NCBI GenBank assembly: GCA_000063525.1
Contig: CT978603.1
Coordinates: 1,607,105-1,671,104, forward strand
Length of the DNA: 64,000 nt
Direction of reading: 5' to 3'
DNA from: Synechococcus sp. RCC307
Lineage (GTDB): Bacteria; Cyanobacteriota; Cyanobacteriia; PCC-6307; Cyanobiaceae
In this document: in pieces, positions 31,620 to 56,000 of the stretch
Numbering within the stretch: the stretch's first letter is position 1
How the letters are laid out: every line of letters starts with the position of its first letter
Program-made: the position numbers and the translations under genes
The notes under the pieces: generated by a model
Database searches by the model: none
The model's input: only the letters and a program-made list of their open reading frames with translations
What the model was told of the DNA's origin: nothing

Positions 31620-32018
<399 letters not shown>

Positions 32019-32039
32019 TTAGGGCGAAAGCCAAACGGC

Positions 32040-45224: not shown

Positions 45225-46520
45225 TTGATCGAGCGCTACACCCTGCCGGAGATGGGCGGGATCTGGACGGAAGACGCCAAGTTCCAAAGCTGGCTGGACG
45301 TTGAAATCGCTGTCTGCGAAGCCCAGTCCGAGCTGGGCCGCGTGCCTGCTGAAGCACTCGCCACGATCAAGAACAAAGCAGCCTTCAGCCGCGAGCGGAT
45401 CCTCGAGATCGAGGCCGAGGTGCGCCACGACGTGATCGCCTTCCTCACCAACGTGAACGAACACGTGGGTGATGCCGGGCGCTACATCCATGTGGGCATG
45501 ACCAGCTCCGATGTGCTCGACACCGGCCTGGCGCTGCAACTCAAGGCCTCGGTGAAGCTGCTGCGCAGCGAGCTCGACAAGCTCGCAGAAGCCATCCGCG
45601 TGCAAGCACGGGCCCACAAAAACACCGTGATGATCGGGCGCTCCCATGCCATCCACGGCGAGCCGATCACCTTTGGCTTCAAGCTGGCCGGCTGGCTCGC
45701 GGAGACCGAGCGCAACATCAAACGCCTCAAGCGTCTGCAGAAGGCCGTCAGCGTGGGCCAGATCAGTGGCGCCATGGGCAACTACGCCAACACCGAACCG
45801 CAGATCGAAGAACGGGCCTGTGAGCTGCTGGGGCTTCGGCCCGATCCAGCCAGCACCCAGGTGATCAGCCGCGACCGCCACGCCGATTACGTGCAGACCC
45901 TGGCCCTGGTGGGCACGGCCCTAGAGCGCTTCTCCACAGAGATTCGCAACCTGCAGCGCAGCGATGTGCTCGAGGTGGAAGAGGCCTTTGCCAAGGGGCA
46001 AAAGGGCAGCTCAGCCATGCCCCACAAACGCAACCCGATCCGCAGCGAACGCATCAGCGGCTTGGCGCGGGTGCTGCGCAGCTACACCGTGGCAGCTCTG
46101 GAAAACGTGGCGCTGTGGCACGAGCGCGACATCAGCCACAGCTCGGTGGAGCGCATGATGCTTCCTGATGTCAGCGTCACCCTGCATTTCATGCTGCGGG
46201 AGATGACGAAGGTCGTGAGCGGTCTGCAGGTCTACCCCGACACCATGGAGCGCAACATGAACCGCTACGGCGGTGTGGTGTTCAGCCAAACGGTGTTGCT
46301 GGCCTTAGTGGACAGCGGCATGAGCCGCGAAGACGCCTACCGGCTGGTGCAGGGCCATGCCCATTCCGCCTGGAATGTCGAAGGCGGCAACTTCCGCAAG
46401 GCGCTCGAGAACGATCCCGCAGTCACCGATCGCATCAGCGCTGAGCGCCTGGCCGATTGCTTCAGCACCGAGCGGCATCAAGCCCAGCTCGACACCATCT
46501 ACGCCCGCTTGGCAATCTGA
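45225..46520 (+). CDS. purB: Adenylosuccinate lyase
   Basis: A fumarase/aspartase-superfamily enzyme that acts twice in purine synthesis (SAICAR to AICAR, adenylosuccinate to AMP). The sequence opens IERYTLPEMGGIWTEDAKF. It contains VGMTSSDVLDTGLALQL, the superfamily signature GSSAMPHKRNPIRSE and ENVALWHERDISHSSVERMM. TTG 45225 directly before IERY is chosen since homologues start MIERYTLPEM. It gives 431 residues, normal for the family. Confidence 0.95.
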   Translation: MIERYTLPEMGGIWTEDAKFQSWLDVEIAVCEAQSELGRVPAEALATIKNKAAFSRERILEIEAEVRHDVIAFLTNVNEHVGDAGRYIHVGMTSSDVLDTGLALQLKASVKLLRSELDKLAEAIRVQARAHKNTVMIGRSHAIHGEPITFGFKLAGWLAETERNIKRLKRLQKAVSVGQISGAMGNYANTEPQIEERACELLGLRPDPASTQVISRDRHADYVQTLALVGTALERFSTEIRNLQRSDVLEVEEAFAKGQKGSSAMPHKRNPIRSERISGLARVLRSYTVAALENVALWHERDISHSSVERMMLPDVSVTLHFMLREMTKVVSGLQVYPDTMERNMNRYGGVVFSQTVLLALVDSGMSREDAYRLVQGHAHSAWNVEGGNFRKALENDPAVTDRISAERLADCFSTERHQAQLDTIYARLAI

Positions 46521-46571
46521 GCGATCGGCGTTGGCGCGCCAGTTCGCCCGGTTGAGGGAGTCATCCACGAT
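46521..46571 (-). pseudogene. Possible remnant of a helicase-gene 3' end directly behind purB
   Basis: Read on the minus strand this stretch gives IVDDSLNRANWRANAD, against VVDDSLNPATMRAASD at the C terminus of the helicase at 58684; 11 of 16 residues agree. In bases, 16 of 18 agree over GTTnAGnGAGTCATCCAC. No stop follows at the expected place. A chance resemblance cannot be excluded, but the site is where an ancestral purB-helicase junction would be. Confidence 0.3.
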
Positions 46572-46887
46572 CTGCGCCGGACTTTGGCGCGCGGGGTGGT
46601 CAACAACCCGAGGCTCTTCGAGCCAGGGACAGGACCGTTCCCCCCGTTGACTCTCTAGCCAAGCCAACGCAACCCGTAACCATCACAAATCCGGAGCCTC
46701 AAGCGTCCGCGCCCTCGGCTAGGCAATAAAAAAGGCGCCCAGCCGAGGGCACCTGTTTTGTCCGATCGCTTTTTAGAAGCGGCCGTACGAAAACAGTACG
46801 GGTCCACCTGCCCTCTAAAGGTCCAAGTTGATACCAACACGCGTTCAGGCAGCAGGGAGCGTTTCACAGGGGCCTGCCTGCCTTAGG
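46572..46887. other. Gene-free stretch with structured 3' region of a minus-strand transcript
   Basis: No supported gene. Read on the minus strand after the stop at 46888 there are several hairpins: AGGCAG(G)CAGG with CCTGCTGCCT, CGTAC with GTACG, and CGCTT with AAGCG, ending in the terminator at 46725-46753. This could be a long structured 3' UTR or an independent small RNA of about 130 bases. No known RNA family is recognised. Beyond the terminator a second arm GCCTAGCCGAGGGC could pair with the terminator stem. Confidence 0.35.
46725..46753 (-). terminator. Intrinsic terminator for a minus-strand transcript
   Basis: Minus-strand stem GGTGCCC/GGGCGCC (one G-U pair), loop TCGGCT, followed by TTTTTTATT. 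It lies about 135 bases past the stop of the gene at 46888. Confidence 0.75.
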
Positions 46888-47256
46888 TCAGCTGTTGGGC
46901 CCGCTGCCGGCCAGTTGCAGCACCAATTGGGTGCCACTGGCCAGGGCCATGGCTTCGATTTCCTCGATCGGACCTTGCAGCCATCGGGCCACATCAAGCA
47001 TGGTCCGAAGCTTCATGGGTTGGGCCAAGGCACCGCTGAGGCTGGCGGGGATCTCGCCGCAGGCTTCCAGCCAGAGCATCCAGTCGCTGCCATCCTCCTC
47101 GAAGGGGATCTGCAGGGTCACCTGCAGCCGTTCACTTGGATGCAGCAGGGTGGTGCTGCTGACGCGCTTCCCGTCGCTGAGGCGGAACAACACCTGCCAG
47201 CCGCCTTTTTCAAAAGCACCGGTCGCCTGCTCGGGCAAGGCCAAGGGCCTGACCAT
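46888..47256 (-). CDS. Conserved hypothetical protein
   Basis: A protein of about 122 residues from ATG 47256: MVRPLALPEQATGAFEKGGW, then FRLSDGKRVSSTTLLHPSER, ENVTLQ-like beta strands and a C-terminal helix MLDVARWLQGPIEEIEAMAL. It looks like a soluble alpha/beta domain; similar proteins of unknown function occur near core genes in picocyanobacteria, as far as I recall. The frame is open to 47319, but the upstream part is less protein-like. It is followed by a structured region and terminator. Confidence 0.6.
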   Translation of the reverse strand: MVRPLALPEQATGAFEKGGWQVLFRLSDGKRVSSTTLLHPSERLQVTLQIPFEEDGSDWMLWLEACGEIPASLSGALAQPMKLRTMLDVARWLQGPIEEIEAMALASGTQLVLQLAGSGPNS

Positions 47257-47336
47257 GGCACTTCTGGCAAGTGTGCCCGGTCGTCCTACAGCAGCCTGAT
47301 TAAGGCTCGCCCAGCACATCGCTCCAACTGAGTGAG

Positions 47337-47423
47337 CTGACTAAGGAAAGCTTCAGAGGCAAATCACCATTTCAGGGGATCAAACCTCGCAGGGTTCCAG
47401 CAATGGTGAAGAGGTCCGGGAGA
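47337..47423 (+). repeat. Leader repeat R1, copy A
   Basis: The first of three copies of an approximately 85-bp element (others at 49443 and 50686). Shared core: CTGACT.AGGAAAG, CTTCAGAGGCAAATCACCAT, TTTCAGGGGA. A hairpin near its 3' end is kept by changing bases: here AACC/GGTT, in copy B AAAC/GTTT. It precedes the microprotein gene at 47448. Position and covariation suggest a cis-acting RNA leader. Confidence 0.7.
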
Positions 47424-47447
47424 GATTCCACTACCCCTTTAAAGCAA

Positions 47448-47627
47448 ATGACCAACTTCCAAAAAGCAGTTGCTTCGCTTGCTTGTGGTGCCATTGCTGT
47501 TCTTATCACCACCGCTACCTATGCGAGCCCATCTCAAGCTTCGCCCGTAGACGAAGCAGCCAGGCAGTTCGAGCAGTCCTATTGCTTCACTACTTCTGGC
47601 GCTGACCGATGGAAAGCTTGCCGCTGA
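47448..47627 (+). CDS. Secreted microprotein A (two-Cys family, paralogue of 49537)
   Basis: A 59-residue protein with a signal peptide (MTNFQKAVASLACGAIAVLI, cleavage expected after YASPSQA) and a mature part of about 28 residues containing ARQFEQSYCFTTSGADRWKA and CR at the end. The paralogue at 49537 has KQFEQSYCITSSAAERWKGC, so both Cys and the QFEQSYC and RWK motifs are kept. ATG 47448 aligns with the paralogue start; ATG 47403 is in frame but lies in the R1 leader. The mature peptide with its two Cys would be exported. Function is unknown. Confidence 0.7.
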   Translation: MTNFQKAVASLACGAIAVLITTATYASPSQASPVDEAARQFEQSYCFTTSGADRWKACR

Positions 47628-47682
47628 ACCGCCGCGGTGTTGGCGTTGCATCCATCAGCAATCGGCCCGTCCAGCTGGCGCC

Positions 47683-48126
47683 TTAACTCAACTCATCCAA
47701 CAGGCTGTTGAGCTTGTGCTCAATCGCTGCGATCGGGTCCACAGCTGGATCGCCTTCGCCCAAGTCTTTGATGCTCCAAAAGCAGATCGCCTCTTCCCAG
47801 GCAGGGAAGAGGGCCTGCACCATCGGCCGGTGGGCATCTTCATCAACAGCCACCACCCGATCAGCGCTCTGCAGCAGAGCTTCCGTCACTTGCCGGGGCA
47901 TGGCCAGCTCGTCAACCACGAGGGAAATGCCCCGTTGCTCCAGAGCCTCAATCGCTTCTGGCGCCATCGCACCCACATTGCCGCAGCCGCTATGAACGTT
48001 CAGGCCGGCGGAGCTGGCCTGCAGCCGATCGCTCAGCCCGCGCTGCTGAGCCTGGGCGTTGAACCATTCCTGGGCAAAACGGCTGCGGAAGTAATTGCCG
48101 GTGCAGAGAAAGAGAACGCGAGTCAT
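47683..48126 (-). CDS. Low-molecular-weight protein-tyrosine phosphatase-like protein
   Basis: A 147-residue protein starting MTRVLFLCTGNYFRSRFAQE: the CX5R(S) P-loop with catalytic Cys8 and Arg14 and the usual N-S pair partly altered (NYFRSR). The general-acid Asp region is KDLGEGDPAVDP in place of the usual DP motif. It could be a tyrosine phosphatase or an arsenate-reductase-like relative; the P-loop and DP-type loop favour a phosphatase. It lies inside the accessory stretch but has core-like codon use. Confidence 0.85.
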   Translation of the reverse strand: MTRVLFLCTGNYFRSRFAQEWFNAQAQQRGLSDRLQASSAGLNVHSGCGNVGAMAPEAIEALEQRGISLVVDELAMPRQVTEALLQSADRVVAVDEDAHRPMVQALFPAWEEAICFWSIKDLGEGDPAVDPIAAIEHKLNSLLDELS

Positions 48127-48138
48127 CGTCTTGGCAAA

Positions 48139-48594
48139 TCAAACGGCAACGCCAACGCGCAGAGCCTGTTGCCACGACACGCGCAGCTGCAGCAGGAACA
48201 ACGCTGAGGCCAGAATCAGCCCGAGCATCGCCAGCACAAACAGGGGCACCAGCGCCAGGGTCAGATCGATCTGGCTGATCACGCTGATGAACAGGATCGC
48301 GATCACCAGCGAGATGATCATCACCACCAGCGTCAGCAACGTGATGGCTTGCATGGTGAGCCGCAAACGCCGTTGCAGAACACGCAGTTCACAAGCGATC
48401 TGATCAGCACTGACCAGATCCTCTCCGGTGTTACGCACGGCATGCAGCACCCGGTAGCGCTCAACGATCTTGAGCCGTTGAGTGGTCATCACACCCATCA
48501 GCCCGCCTACACCCACCAGCAGAAATGCCGGCGCCATCGACAAGCGGATGGCATGGGCCAATGACTCAGCAGCCGCAGTTGCTGGTTGCGCCAT
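48139..48594 (-). CDS. DUF2721 family membrane protein
   Basis: A protein of about 151 residues with three membrane helices. The first is APAFLLVGVGGLMGVMTTQR, followed by a cytosolic segment with the conserved Arg/Glu-rich IVERYRVLHAVRN and LQRRLRLTMQAITLLTLVVM, and two C-terminal helices. This matches DUF2721, a family of unknown function. ATG 48594 (MAQPATAAAES) is preferred over 48639. It starts 13 bases above the phosphatase gene on the same strand. Confidence 0.8.
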   Translation of the reverse strand: MAQPATAAAESLAHAIRLSMAPAFLLVGVGGLMGVMTTQRLKIVERYRVLHAVRNTGEDLVSADQIACELRVLQRRLRLTMQAITLLTLVVMIISLVIAILFISVISQIDLTLALVPLFVLAMLGLILASALFLLQLRVSWQQALRVGVAV

Positions 48595-48675
48595 AGCGAG
48601 GAGCATCGTTCTGGCTAGCGACAGGTCCAAGCTGATCAAGCAGGCTTAAGCCTGAGCAAACGAGCGGCTTCCAGC

Positions 48676-48882
48676 TCAGCGGTTGATCTCCGTCAGCCGC
48701 GGTTGGGCGCAAATCAGCCGGATGCCGTAGAGCCTGACCGCTCCCTTCCTCGAGGGACTGCCATCGGCAACGCTGATCTCACAAGGGCCCGCCTGATGGG
48801 AAATGGCAGCACCAGCAGCGATGAAAATTCCCGCCAAGCCAGCAACAACGCTGGCCATCATGAATTGGGTTGAGCGAGGCAT
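48676..48882 (-). CDS. Small exported or membrane-anchored protein
   Basis: A 68-residue protein with an N-terminal hydrophobic segment (MASVVAGLAGIFIAAGAAIS) and a polar remainder with two Cys (AGPCEISVADGSPSRKG, RLICAQPRLTEINR). It could be a signal peptide or anchor. The two Cys suggest a disulfide outside the cytoplasm, in line with the other small exported proteins of this island. No family is recognised. Confidence 0.5.
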   Translation of the reverse strand: MPRSTQFMMASVVAGLAGIFIAAGAAISHQAGPCEISVADGSPSRKGAVRLYGIRLICAQPRLTEINR

Positions 48883-49034
48883 GGATCTCCACCCGACATC
48901 TCCAGCGTCGCTCGTAACTCAGCGGCTGTGATCCCCTGTTCTGGTGAAAAGCAGCTGAGCGTTGATGAAGTTATCTCCACCCTTCCACTGATGGGCCATG
49001 ACAACGTTCAGGGCGCTTTGAACCGCCGTTTCAA

Positions 49035-49280
49035 TCAGGCGGGGGGCTGTGCAGATTTGCCTGAGGATTGCTGGCGCTTCTTTTGATTGAGGGGCGTGCC
49101 TCTCCACTTGAGATTGTTTCTCCTGGATTCCAGCTTGAAAAGCTGGCGCCTGGCTTCTCGGCCCAGGTCGCTATCAGGTCCATGGAGAAGCAGGCGTGCT
49201 CTCCAACGGGCCATGATCCGCTCCAACAGCTCCTGTTCATCCAGGGGTTGTTGGAAAGTCTTTGGCTGAAGAGTTTCCAT
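49035..49280 (-). CDS. Small charged hypothetical protein
   Basis: An 81-residue hydrophilic protein, METLQPKTFQQPLDEQELLE, then IMARWRARLLLHGPDSDLGR and a basic tail. A strongly helical, Arg/Leu/Glu-rich stretch in the middle looks like a real folded segment. A second frame on the same strand (48919-49107) overlaps its end and is less convincing. No function is known. Confidence 0.45.
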   Translation of the reverse strand: METLQPKTFQQPLDEQELLERIMARWRARLLLHGPDSDLGREARRQLFKLESRRNNLKWRGTPLNQKKRQQSSGKSAQPPA

Positions 49281-49400
49281 TTCTGGAGAACAACCATTTG
49301 AAATTCAACCTAAGGAGCTAAATCAAAGCTCAGCTTTGTTCACCGTTGATTTATGCACTATCAGTATCAAGGTCTCGCCACCTAGCCACCAACGTCTTCC

Positions 49401-49446
49401 GGGTGGTCCCGAGCCCAAGACGCAAGACCTCAGTAGGCGCCGCTGA
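49401..49446 (+). repeat. Upstream repeat R2, copy 1
   Basis: Core GTGGT.CCGAGC, then CGCAAGACCTCAGTAGGCGC and CGCTGA. Related copies lie at 50651, 54221 and 55951. Here it runs directly into R1 copy B. Confidence 0.6.
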
Positions 49447-49529
49447 CTCAGGAAAGTCTCAGAGGCAAATCACCATTTCAGGGGACCAAACCTCGCAAGT
49501 TTCCAGCGATGGTGAAGTCATCCGAGAGG
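49443..49529 (+). repeat. Leader repeat R1, copy B
   Basis: Near-identical to copy A over about 75 bases (GAGGCAAATCACCATTTCAG is the same in both). Potential hairpins are CTGACT/AG..TCAG at the 5' end and AAAC/GTTT at the 3' end. It is followed by a ribosome-binding site GAGAGGAAGG and the start of the microprotein gene at 49537. Confidence 0.7.
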
Positions 49530-49536
49530 AAGGCCT

Positions 49537-49776
49537 ATGAACAACGCAATTAAATTCCTGGCCGGCACCATCGGCGCTGCCGCCGCAATCACCGGACTGG
49601 CCATGGCCAAACCAGAGCCTGCTCATGCAGGCGAACAAGCCAAGCAGTTCGAGCAGTCTTATTGCATCACTAGCTCTGCTGCTGAGCGCTGGAAAGGCTG
49701 CCGTTGGACCGCCTGGCCATTCACCCATTTGGGGGGAAGCGGGGAACCCTCAACGGCAGTGATGGTGGAGCGATGA
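49537..49776 (+). CDS. Secreted microprotein B with read-through C-terminal extension
   Basis: A 79-residue paralogue of the protein at 47448. The signal peptide is MNNAIKFLAGTIGAAAAITG to about AEPAHA-like KPEPAHA, then EQAKQFEQSYCITSSAAERW and KGCR. Where copy A has its stop (CGC TGA ACCGCC) this copy has CGT TGG ACCGCC, so translation continues for 20 more residues, through the G1 element, to a stop overlapping the next ATG (ATGA at 49773). A good ribosome-binding site (GAGAGGAAGG) precedes ATG 49537. It is the first gene of a four-gene coupled operon. Confidence 0.7.
   Translation: MNNAIKFLAGTIGAAAAITGLAMAKPEPAHAGEQAKQFEQSYCITSSAAERWKGCRWTAWPFTHLGGSGEPSTAVMVER
49719..49750 (+). promoter_or_regulatory. 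G element, copy 1 (candidate downstream-peptide/glutamine riboswitch-like)
   Basis: The sequence begins ATTCACCCATTTGGGGGG and continues AAGCGGGGAACCCT. It shares TTCACCC...GGGGGAAGCGGGGAAC with copies at 51571 and 58501, each ahead of a small gene. The layout (TTCA, short CCC/GGG stem, GGAAGnGG, GGAACGC) recalls the cyanobacterial glnA/downstream-peptide RNA class. This copy lies inside the read-through part of the gene at 49537. Class membership is an inference from remembered consensus. Confidence 0.4.
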
Positions 49777-49916
49777 AACTCCTCCACGAAATCTTCGGCA
49801 CTGGCCCCCTGGTCGTCACTCTCTCCCTGCTGGCCTGCATCGGGTTTGCGGCTTACAGCCTGGAGCTGGCGCCAACGGCTTATCAACGCCTGGAGATCGA
49901 GAATCGCTTCCGCTGA
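49773..49916 (+). CDS. Small single-span membrane protein
   Basis: A 47-residue protein, MKLLHEIFGTGPLVVTLSLL, with one hydrophobic segment (VVTLSLLACIGFAAYSL) and a polar tail with Arg/Glu. Its ATG overlaps the stop of the gene upstream (ATGA), and its stop overlaps the next start (TGATG), which supports translation despite its size. No family is recognised. Confidence 0.6.
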   Translation: MKLLHEIFGTGPLVVTLSLLACIGFAAYSLELAPTAYQRLEIENRFR

Positions 49917-50104
49917 TGGCTTTCTACCTCTCTTGCATCAGGTGGTGGCTGCTCCTATTGCCTGCAGCTGTTGCCGTTTGGCTTTTGCCCGCCGCGTTGA
50001 CTGCCTACGTCCGCTTCTATTGCCAAATCGGGTTCAAGGGTGCTGAGTGCGCTCAGCTCTCGTTGAAGGATCAGCGGCGCAGAGCAGCGAGGCTGGCGCA
50101 ATGA
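49916..50104 (+). CDS. Small membrane protein
   Basis: A 62-residue protein: MAFYLSCIRWWLLLLPAAVA, VWLLPAALTAYVRFYCQIGF, then a basic tail KDQRRRAARLAQ. There are one or two hydrophobic segments with several Cys. It is coupled on both sides (TGATG at the start, ATGA at the end). No function is known; the basic tail suggests the C terminus stays in the cytoplasm. Confidence 0.6.
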   Translation: MAFYLSCIRWWLLLLPAAVAVWLLPAALTAYVRFYCQIGFKGAECAQLSLKDQRRRAARLAQ

Positions 50105-50331
50105 CGCGAAAGCTGTACTGGCTGGCGTTCAAGGTCGGCGATGAATACAAGCTCAGCCCGTACCGATGCGAATCACGGCAGGACGCAATGCGTCATGGCA
50201 TGGAGCATGTCTTGGATCGCGAGCTCGTCGCTGTGTTCTCAGAGGATGCTGGCTTCACCGTCGACGAAATGCTGGACCTAGCCACCTTCATGCAGCGGCC
50301 CGGATCGGTGTTCCTGCGGCCAGAGGAATGA
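50101..50331 (+). CDS. Small soluble protein, intact member of the YWLAFKVGDEYKLSP family
   Basis: A 76-residue protein, MTRKLYWLAFKVGDEYKLSP, then MRHGMEHVLDRELVAVFSED and FTVDEMLDLATFMQRPGSVF. It is soluble, mixed alpha/beta. Decayed and truncated relatives occur at 51998 and 58550, each after a G element, so this gene travels with that leader. ATG 50101 overlaps the upstream stop (ATGA). No function is known to me. Confidence 0.7.
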   Translation: MTRKLYWLAFKVGDEYKLSPYRCESRQDAMRHGMEHVLDRELVAVFSEDAGFTVDEMLDLATFMQRPGSVFLRPEE

Positions 50332-50557
50332 GCTGCCCAGGCACATGGCGTGGTGTCACCACTGTCGATGGAGCTGGTTGAGCAGGGAGGGTTGCGCTGG
50401 TCGCGTTGAGCACCTCAAACAGTCCGCTGAGCCGGATGGTGGCCTCACGGATTGACCTCGCTGCAATCACTGACTCCTCGGTGTCCTCACAGGCGGTGGC
50501 AAGGTCAACAACCAGCCCCATGTGCTCCTGCAAGGCCTCGGCAAGATCCGGGTGCAT
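50288..50557 (-). CDS. Possible small hypothetical protein
   Basis: An 89-residue frame: MHPDLAEALQEHMGLVVDLA, TACEDTEESVIAARSIREAT, then IRLSGLFEVLNATSATLPAQ. The first 55 residues form a plausible helical protein with good acidic/hydrophobic spacing; the tail overlaps the 3' end of the opposite-strand gene by 44 bases. No relatives are recognised. Confidence 0.4.
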   Translation of the reverse strand: MHPDLAEALQEHMGLVVDLATACEDTEESVIAARSIREATIRLSGLFEVLNATSATLPAQPAPSTVVTPRHVPGQLIPLAAGTPIRAAA

Positions 50558-50650
50558 CGCTGATGCGGGCAGTTGGTGCCGAGAAAGTAGCTGCTTTCAG
50601 ATCGTTTGCGATGCCTTGAAGATCACATACGCCTTAGCGCTCAATCAACC

Positions 50651-50689
50651 AAGACGTCAGAGCTGCAGGACCTCGGCAGGCACCGCTGA
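50651..50689 (+). repeat. Upstream repeat R2, copy 2
   Basis: Reads GAGCTGCAGGACCTCGGCAG then GCACCGCTGA. It is similar to the other R2 copies in the CCTC.G.AGGC.CCGCTGA core and again leads directly into R1. Confidence 0.55.
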
Positions 50690-50770
50690 CTCAGGAAAGT
50701 CTCAGAAGCAAATCACCCTTTCAGGGGAGCAACTCTCCTGGGGTTCCCGCGACATTGATGACAGAGCTTC
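50686..50770 (+). repeat. Leader repeat R1, copy C
   Basis: The third R1 copy. CTGACTCAGGAAAGTCTCAG is identical to copy B, then AAGCAAATCACCCTTTCAGG. The 3' hairpin is kept with other bases (GGGA..AAC paired with GTT..CCC). It ends just before the Coq4-like gene at 50779. Confidence 0.65.
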
Positions 50771-50778
50771 ATCAATAG

Positions 50779-51507
50779 ATGACTTCAAAACAACAGCATT
50801 ACGCACGATCAGCTTTTTCTGATGGTGCCACAAAGCTAGGTATTTCGATTCTGCAAACAGCAAAGCAGCCGGATAAGGCATTAAAACACGGCCGTTATTT
50901 TGGCATCCCAGGGAGCACCAAACTGGCAAAAGAAATCCTAGAAAGAGCTCTGGCCACTCCAAAAATTCAGGCGCTACTTGCCAACCGGCCTTCACCACAA
51001 TGGCCAGACCTTGAGCAAATGGCTGCTATGCCCAAAGGGAGCCTTGGATGGTGCGTCCATCGCCGCCTGGAGAAGCTTGGAATTTCTTTCTTGGTGGAGC
51101 AATCACAGGTGAAAGAATCCCAAACAGATGAAGAATACGTGGTAACCAGAGGTGCACGTTTGCACGAAATTCACCACACGATTCTTGGCCTTCCGATCAC
51201 AGTTGCAGGTGAAGCTGCTGCAACGGCGTTTTATGCAAGCACTGGCTCAAGTCCGTACCATATTGGAGTTCTATCGTCATGGATGCTGCGAGGCGCCTAC
51301 GAGCCCAGTGAGCGTCGATTAATCTGGGATGCCATCGGTTTTGGCATTGCAGTTGGTCAAAAGGTGCCTGAACTTTTCTCGCCTCGCTGGGAAGATGGCT
51401 GGGAAAAATCGATCATCGATTGGCAGGATGAATTAGGTATCACCGAGCTGCTGAAATCGTCTCCATTCCAGGATGAATTTGCAAACATCTATGGATTAAC
51501 TCTTTAG
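50779..51507 (+). CDS. Coq4-like protein
   Basis: A 242-residue soluble protein. The metal-site pattern of the Coq4 family is seen in ARLHEIHHTILGLPITVAGE (H-x3-H, then Gly-Leu and a Glu 11 residues on; Coq4 normally has HDxxH). The N-terminal part (GRYFGIPGSTKLAKEILERA, LGWCVHRRLEKLG) also fits. In other organisms Coq4 acts in ubiquinone synthesis by decarboxylation/hydroxylation of the ring. Picocyanobacteria make plastoquinone, so the substrate is open. Lower G+C than the core suggests transfer. It is preceded by R2-R1 and followed by a terminator. Confidence 0.75.
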   Translation: MTSKQQHYARSAFSDGATKLGISILQTAKQPDKALKHGRYFGIPGSTKLAKEILERALATPKIQALLANRPSPQWPDLEQMAAMPKGSLGWCVHRRLEKLGISFLVEQSQVKESQTDEEYVVTRGARLHEIHHTILGLPITVAGEAAATAFYASTGSSPYHIGVLSSWMLRGAYEPSERRLIWDAIGFGIAVGQKVPELFSPRWEDGWEKSIIDWQDELGITELLKSSPFQDEFANIYGLTL

Positions 51508-51538
51508 TGATCCAGCTCTGAAATGGCTAGCGCTCGCC

Positions 51539-51562
51539 GCCCCTGCAGAAGCAGGGGCTTTT
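51539..51562 (+). terminator. Intrinsic terminator of the Coq4-like gene
   Basis: Stem GCCCCTGC/GCAGGGGC with loop AGAA, then TTTT. It lies about 30 bases after the stop. The same stem sequence is used by the terminator at 55900. Confidence 0.85.
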
Positions 51563-51570
51563 CATTGGCA

Positions 51571-51604
51571 ATTCACCCAAACGGGGGAAGCGGGGAACGC
51601 TGAG
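51571..51604 (+). promoter_or_regulatory. G element, copy 2 (candidate downstream-peptide/glutamine riboswitch-like)
   Basis: Begins ATTCACCCAAACGGGGG, then AAGCGGGGAACGCTGAGC. It starts nine bases after the terminator and ends 35 bases before the small gene at 51639. This copy is not inside a gene, so its conservation relative to copy 1 is not explained by coding. Confidence 0.45.
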
Positions 51605-51638
51605 CTCAAGCGACGTTGGAAACACGCGAGAGAACCCA

Positions 51639-51998
51639 ATGTCCAGACCTACCTCGTCCATTCGTGAAGCGATTGCACCCAGCCCAACCAAGGGAGTACC
51701 CATTCGCACTTTTGTTATTTGCATCGCGGCACTTGGGTTATTCGGTTTAACGCTCTCAGCAATGGATGCACCTACTAACGCACCCGTTGCTCCCCTCTCT
51801 GAAGCAGAACAGCGAGCTGCCAAAGCCCATGCAGACAACCTTTGCCTGATGAGTGAGCAAAGCGGGAACGACTTAGCGCAGACCATTGCAGGCCTGCCTG
51901 ACATGGCAGATGTCGCTGACCCAACACTGCAATTCGATAGGGAGACGCGCTTTGTCCCCGCCGGAACTGAGATGGCTAGGCAGCGGGGCTGCGTCTAA
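51639..51998 (+). CDS. Small membrane-anchored hypothetical protein
   Basis: A 119-residue protein. A polar N terminus of about 22 residues (with SIREAIAPSPTKG) precedes one hydrophobic segment (FVICIAALGLFGLTLSAM), then a hydrophilic domain (LSEAEQRAAKAHADNLCLMS, then TRFVPAGTEMARQRGC). The domain would be periplasmic or lumenal if the segment is an N-in anchor. It is preceded by G copy 2, and its stop abuts a decayed copy of the 50101 family, in the same order as in the 49773-50101 operon. Confidence 0.6.
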   Translation: MSRPTSSIREAIAPSPTKGVPIRTFVICIAALGLFGLTLSAMDAPTNAPVAPLSEAEQRAAKAHADNLCLMSEQSGNDLAQTIAGLPDMADVADPTLQFDRETRFVPAGTEMARQRGCV

Positions 51999-52391: not shown

Positions 52392-52406
52392 CGTTAAACT
52401 GCAGGC

Positions 52407-52482
52407 GTGAAGCTGGAACACGGCTACTGGTGTTTCTGAGTGCGAGCATCATGCGCGAAGATTTTCCGGCTCAATGCGTCGC
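52407..52482 (+). repeat. Leader repeat R4, copy 1
   Basis: GTGAAGCTGGAACACGGCTA at the 5' end, GCATCATGCGCGAAGATTTT in the middle and CAATGCGTCGC over the start of the gene at 52474. Copy 2 at 56009 is highly similar over its whole length. Both contain an out-of-frame upstream ATG (MR.DFP.QCVA). Confidence 0.75.
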
Positions 52483-54220: not shown

Positions 54221-54270
54221 ACCCCGTGGTGCCGAGCTTGAGCCGCAAGGCCTCGGCAAGCGGCGTTGAA
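54221..54270 (+). repeat. Upstream repeat R2, copy 3
   Basis: Reads CCCCGTGGTGCCGAGCTTGA, then GCCGCAAGGCCTCGGCAAGC. It shares GTGGTnCCGAGC and CGCAAGnCCTCnG with copy 1. It is followed by a CCCCGT/ACGGGG hairpin and, 150 bases on, the gene at 54423. Confidence 0.55.
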
Positions 54271-55950: not shown

Positions 55951-56000
55951 GCCACGTGCTCCTGAGCCTGAACCGCAAGACCTCAGCAGGCGCCGCTGAA
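55951..56000 (+). repeat. Upstream repeat R2, copy 4
   Basis: Reads CCTGAGCCTGAACCGCAAGA, then CCTCAGCAGGCGCCGCTGAA. It is closest to copy 1 in the CAGNAGGCGCCGCTGA core. Here it runs into R4 instead of R1. Confidence 0.6.

Follow-up and report, generated by a model that had tools for sequence, protein, structure and literature searches.

R1, a candidate cis-acting leader RNA upstream of mostly exported short proteins in marine Synechococcus

Why should two genes for small exported proteins in one marine Synechococcus genome be preceded by nearly the same stretch of DNA? The window analyzed here is a 64,000-nucleotide stretch of a Cyanobiaceae genome of 2,224,914 bases in a single contig. An initial annotation had noted that an 85-bp leader (R1) and a two-Cys exported microprotein occur together twice, and had read the pair as a peptide family with its own RNA leader. 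Our preferred reading, to which we assign a probability of roughly 60%, is that R1 is a subtype of a cis-acting 5′-leader RNA family in marine Synechococcus that controls the translation of mostly exported short proteins. The leader RNA reading draws support from the recurrence of the element, its almost constant distance to the start codon, the genes it precedes, the modular pattern of conservation, and a degree of compensatory pairing.

Leader copies and genes in the window

Two covariance models were built, the first from 9 sequences and the second from 25. The 25-copy model detected six leader copies in the window, all inside 47337–51626 (4.3 kb), with nothing further below E 1. These copies and the reading frames behind them are as follows.

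47337–47421, plus strand: R1a, full-type leader with 5′ hairpin/CTCAG repeat, central hairpin, 3′ hairpin and ATGGTGAAG (72.6 bits, E 1.2e-15)
47448–47627, plus strand: exported two-Cys microprotein 1, 59 aa (signal peptide assigned by inspection)
48676–48882, minus strand: 68-aa short ORF with a hydrophobic N-terminus, downstream of the minus-strand leader
48895–48970, minus strand: diverged leader copy (28.1 bits, E 6.2e-5)
49443–49527, plus strand: R1b, full-type leader (85.2 bits, E 1.1e-18)
49537–49776, plus strand: exported two-Cys microprotein 2, 79 aa; the homologous part stops at CR (49704)
49713–49775, plus strand: R1d, short leader copy within the read-through tail of microprotein 2 (31.7 bits, E 8.2e-6)
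49773–49916, plus strand: 47-aa membrane microprotein whose start overlaps the preceding stop (ATGA)
50686–50770, plus strand: R1c, full-type leader (91.4 bits, E 3.6e-20)
50779–51507, plus strand: Coq4-like protein, 242 aa, behind R1c (Pfam PF05019, E 1.8e-13)
51560–51626, plus strand: R1e, short leader copy (39.2 bits, E 1.3e-7)
51639–51998, plus strand: 119-aa ORF with one hydrophobic segment, behind R1e

The twofold pairing of leader and microprotein was borne out. R1a (47337) and R1b (49443) match at 87% of 86 aligned bases, with an E-value of 8e-24 against the genome, and where identical stretches of 20 bases had been reported, they share the 26-base CAGAGGCAAATCACCATTTCAGGGGA. The mature parts have QFEQSYC and RWK in common, as annotated, with RWK..CR kept in both microproteins. 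The 3′ ends of the two genes are 81% identical and the intervening stretch is too diverged to align; the two units have thus conserved the leader and the mature end, while the signal-peptide DNA has diverged. Microprotein 1 has two possible starts in the same frame, 47448 and 47403.

The third copy recognized earlier, R1c, is real, but it heads no microprotein. Its gene product is Coq4-like, scoring 50.7 bits with PF05019 against a gathering cut-off of 22.9. Three shorter copies (48895–48970 on the minus strand, 49713–49775 and 51560–51626; E 6e-5 to 1e-7) add to those in the initial annotation. An ORF lies downstream of all six copies; it is short in five cases, and in four it carries a signal-peptide-like or membrane segment.

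The microprotein family was found in only three genomes of the genus, and the small proteins match no Pfam, NCBIfam or PHROG family above cut-off. DUF3551 was considered for microprotein 2 and rejected (E 0.012, under that family's cut-off). In one other genome (G002), R1b and its gene are kept together, and a homologue of the R1e-headed 119-aa ORF retains both leader and N-terminus. In microprotein 2, the stop present after ..CR in its relatives is missing; the frame continues for 23 residues (49705–49776), and its end overlaps the start of the following ORF (ATGA). Elsewhere in the window's genome, a frame-shifted remnant of a microprotein gene lies at 1542185–1542241, and covariance model R2 detected no leader beside it. 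GC content falls from ~63% to ~50% across 46–58 kb of the window, placing the leader cluster at the edge of a lower-GC stretch.

Gene context, spacing and modularity

The initial annotation had treated the leader as a property of the microprotein family. This was not supported: copies of the leader also stand before Coq4-like genes at nine loci, before a gene for an acyltransferase-like protein, and before numerous genes for unrelated microproteins of the secreted or membrane kind. Given that it precedes many unrelated short ORFs, most of which carry signal peptides, and that the microprotein was found in one genus only, the leader is not private to the microprotein. Among close Coq4-like genes, R1 is present at the nine loci and a leader of tandem-hairpin form occupies the same place in five other inspected genomes; the two forms are linked because both head the orthologous Coq4-like gene. 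Two more distant Coq4-like proteins were inspected and carry neither form.

Spacing to the start codon is nearly fixed. Of the 19 full-type copies, 14 have their ATG 93–94 nt from the leader's 5′ end, nine of them at orthologous Coq4-like genes and five not; in the related type, 29 of the 45 copies have it 46–51 nt past GATGG. The leader therefore keeps the constant position upstream of start codons that is expected of a cis-regulatory leader. Counting against the leader reading, no recognizable sigma-70 promoter was found, and in most copies a clear Shine-Dalgarno sequence is missing at the expected spacing. R1d lies inside a reading frame, and R1e starts four bases past the T-rich tail of a terminator-like hairpin (51539–51558); both placements fit an RNA element better than a promoter. 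Together with the constant ATG spacing, they favor an element acting on RNA near the start codon.

Conservation is modular. Across 26 genes of the related type, leader identity is 72% (58% for shuffled letters) and identity over residues 1–22 is 35% (16% shuffled), whereas mature residues 27–86 are 20% identical, close to the shuffled value of 18%. With leader and signal peptide conserved and the mature parts at shuffle level, the former pair appears as a module shared by unrelated mature peptides. Such a module may have arisen by duplication of leader plus signal peptide and fusion to unrelated mature peptides. A broader proposal is that this pair forms a plug-in expression and export module, spread by marine Synechococcus to dozens of unrelated secreted microproteins, so that a secretome without other links would come under a single post-transcriptional control; we regard this as tentative and are more inclined to doubt it than to adopt it.

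Joint conservation of leader and signal peptide would also be seen if the leader had no regulatory role and was copied passively with the signal-peptide segment, its similarity stemming from recent ancestry or gene conversion. Such copying would also fit the near-identical multi-copy units of G155 and G168, which lie at contig ends. However, the leader is conserved better than the signal peptide that accompanies it, and the R1a and R1b leaders are still 87% identical although their signal-peptide DNA has diverged. Moreover, the leader heads the cytoplasmic-type Coq4-like protein, which has no signal peptide, across genera. Passive copying is thus unlikely.

Predicted pairing of the leader

In the full type (R1a, R1b and R1c), a GACUCAGnAAAGUC hairpin is predicted at the 5′ end and shares bases with a CTCAG-N6-CTCAG direct repeat. 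It is followed in order by AAUCACC-nnnnn-GGGGA, the variable hairpin H3, GCGAYGGTGAAG, a purine-rich stretch, and the ATG. Leaders in other genera have a second CCC-nnnn-GGGGGA hairpin in place of the 5′ hairpin, and a GGAGG..CCTCC hairpin 20 nt before the ATG. The parts of R1b are as follows.

49445–49462, plus strand: H1, GACU-CAGGAA-AGUC hairpin overlapping the CTCAG-N6-CTCAG direct repeat
49470–49485, plus strand: H2, UCACC..GGGGA element, a possible hairpin; sequence conserved in all copies
49488–49502, plus strand: H3, the 3′ hairpin AAAC/GTTT, as initially annotated
49509–49527, plus strand: the tail ATGGTGAAGTCATCCGAGA

Covariation of the 3′ hairpin had been put forward as the argument for an RNA element. 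Different bases do pair in different copies, but the covariation is modest (H3 30/500). In the nine full-type copies, a structure of H1, H2 and H3 together beats nearly all shuffles (covariation 2/500); with 25 copies, support against shuffles is modest for the single elements (H1 9/500, H4 1/500, H3 30/500), and in all of these controls the relatedness of the copies is ignored. H3 shifted by one column scores about equally well.

Support is strongest for the 3′ hairpin that lies close to the start codon in leaders of the related type. This hairpin would form from GGAGG:CCUCC, AGGGG:CCCCU, GAGGG:CCCUC or GGGA:UCCC in different copies. Its mean stem of 4.23 compares with 3.85 when the 3′ parts are dealt among copies (0/500 as good) and with 3.01 on letter permutation. 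The central UCACC..GGGGA hairpin behaves differently: it pairs at 75.3% in register and at 44–56% when slid, but over 63 copies column shuffles reach 73.9%. Because it does no better than shuffled columns, we do not claim H2 as a covarying hairpin. Overall, covariation modestly favors the 3′ hairpin, the 5′ hairpin, and the purine-rich hairpin near the start codon, and does not favor the central one. The ATGGTGA of the R1b tail is able to pair with ATCACCAT at 49469–49476 (H4), which precludes H2. Mutual exclusion of H2 and H4 has the usual look of a switch, a possibility on paper only.

Could the conserved motifs instead be a DNA control site? The CTCAG-N6-CTCAG repeat, with its 11-bp period, and the TCACC...GGTGA inverted repeat might serve as operators through which a regulator controls genes for exported proteins. 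Sites of OmpR/PhoB-type response regulators typically show such an 11-bp period, and the CTCAG repeat is retained where H1 pairing fails (G155, G103 and R1g). Against operators, the spacing is constant to the start codon and not to a promoter, copies lie inside a reading frame or just past a terminator, compensatory changes are seen in the hairpins close to the start codon, and many copies have no CTCAG repeat. These features make a DNA site quite improbable.

The conserved 3′ part could also encode a short upstream peptide (M-V-K/N-x-S..), with translation of the main gene coupled to or attenuated by this upstream ORF. In many copies ATGGTGAA followed by G or T translates as MVKRSRR.. or as MVNTSEG and a stop, sometimes in frame with the main ORF. 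Its ATG, however, was imposed by the search pattern: copies found with the model show GACGG, GATAG, GACAT or GATGC, and the frame relative to the main ORF varies. Since the ATG is not kept among copies, a conserved upstream ORF was rejected, and we consider this explanation very improbable. Integron attC sites were likewise set aside, as the element precedes rather than follows each ORF and has a fixed ATG spacing. Pairing with the Yfr1 sRNA motif was no better than for shuffled leaders.

A leader RNA could work as follows. It would make up the last 65–95 transcribed bases ahead of the start codon in genes for short proteins, most of them exported, and would fold into small hairpins, the final one over the translation start region. 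In this form it may set translation of the gene in response to a common cellular signal, which might be a metabolite, a protein or temperature.

Distribution and relation to known elements

Searching the covariance model against cyanobacterial genomes had been suggested, with the RNA reading to be abandoned if neither further copies nor further covariation appeared. The search returned further copies in the genome and in related genera, together with some compensatory pairing, and the RNA reading withstood this check. The first model found strong copies in nine of the 400 genomes of the family that were searched. With the second, the window's genome gave about 18 candidate copies and two congeneric genomes gave 7 and 9; in genus g34, 26 of 31 genomes hold at least one candidate, many of the weaker ones being candidates only. 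Among 242 genomes sampled across the class, seven match at E 0.01, all from the same family and from three genera; at this threshold, no leader was detected outside this cyanobacterial family.

The conserved-tail pattern GATGGTGAANNNNTCNNRGRG gave 91 matches in the 400 genomes and 0 for the reversed control. Sixty-four of the 91 fall within g34, spread over 20 of its 31 genomes, and about a dozen of those outside g34 resemble unrelated coding sequence. A 17-base pattern search of genome contigs returned mostly chance matches. Phage records and viral contigs held no real leader copy; the 29 pattern matches among viral contigs have no hairpin context around them and resemble unrelated sequence. 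Near-identical leader-plus-gene units lie within ~250 bases of contig ends in G155 (C3, C13, C14 and C23) and G168 (C23 and C29), probably as a recent multi-copy repeat that breaks assemblies.

No Rfam 15 family matches R1 or the related leaders, whether gathering cut-offs or relaxed E-values are applied, consistent with the initial annotation, which did not recognize an exported peptide family with such an RNA leader. Glutamine riboswitches (the Rfam glnA and Downstream-peptide motifs) are leader RNAs of picocyanobacteria, small and structured, located ahead of very short ORFs. R1 resembles them as a small leader, predicted to be structured, before very short ORFs in picocyanobacteria; cmscan gave no match to the glnA or Downstream-peptide aptamer up to E 10 in 46500–51000. 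The signal-peptide and tail strings that were tried were not found in the open-access papers searched. From its sequence pattern, the leader looks like an undescribed RNA control element common to otherwise unrelated secreted peptides.

Two other picocyanobacterial systems invite comparison. Yfr103, the nearest described candidate, is reported as a multi-copy structured ncRNA of 290–328 nt in marine Synechococcus, including RCC307 (PMC5069720). As so described, it is like the leader units in being multi-copy and structured, with a length close to that of leader plus small ORF. Yfr103 is reported from Prochlorococcus too (PMC5069720), whereas the strict leader pattern gave a single, unrelated-looking match in Prochlorococcus-sized genera. 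R1 would be less novel if Yfr103 turned out to be such a leader plus ORF. Prochlorosins and other picocyanobacterial peptide precursors join a conserved N-terminal module to hypervariable mature peptides (PMC10783134), and the leader units likewise combine a conserved module with variable mature peptides. In prochlorosins the conserved module is a leader peptide that serves a modifying enzyme (PMC10783134); here it is a predicted untranslated leader plus a Sec-type signal peptide.

Marine Synechococcus encode many short secreted proteins of unassigned function, for which a shared leader would provide a common handle. A predicted leader RNA conserved over mutually unrelated coding sequences would help to predict which short ORFs are real genes and to group them into a putative regulon, and suggests that one signal may govern what these abundant ocean bacteria release.

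Other repeats lie near the leaders. The 21-base repeat GCARGACCYCRGYAGGCRSCG is present in the window at 49422–49442, 50665–50685, 54245–54265 and 55975–55995, and elsewhere in the genome, with eight genome copies at 0–1 mismatches (the reversed pattern gives 5 at up to 3 mismatches). It ends where R1b and R1c start, is also found upstream of two porin-like genes, and has an upstream extension of ~75 nt. A reading of this repeat as a protein tail (..PEPEPQDLSRRR and a stop) was dismissed, as no long frame lies behind it. The known cyanobacterial ATPC RNA motif of Rfam occurs at 31937–32028 on the minus strand (63 bits). Finally, a second shared leader-like stretch, GTGAAGCTGGAAYACGGCTRCTG..TCGGCATCATGCGC, lies at 52405–52480 before a secreted 105-aa ORF and recurs before two porin-like genes elsewhere in the genome (L281 and L282).
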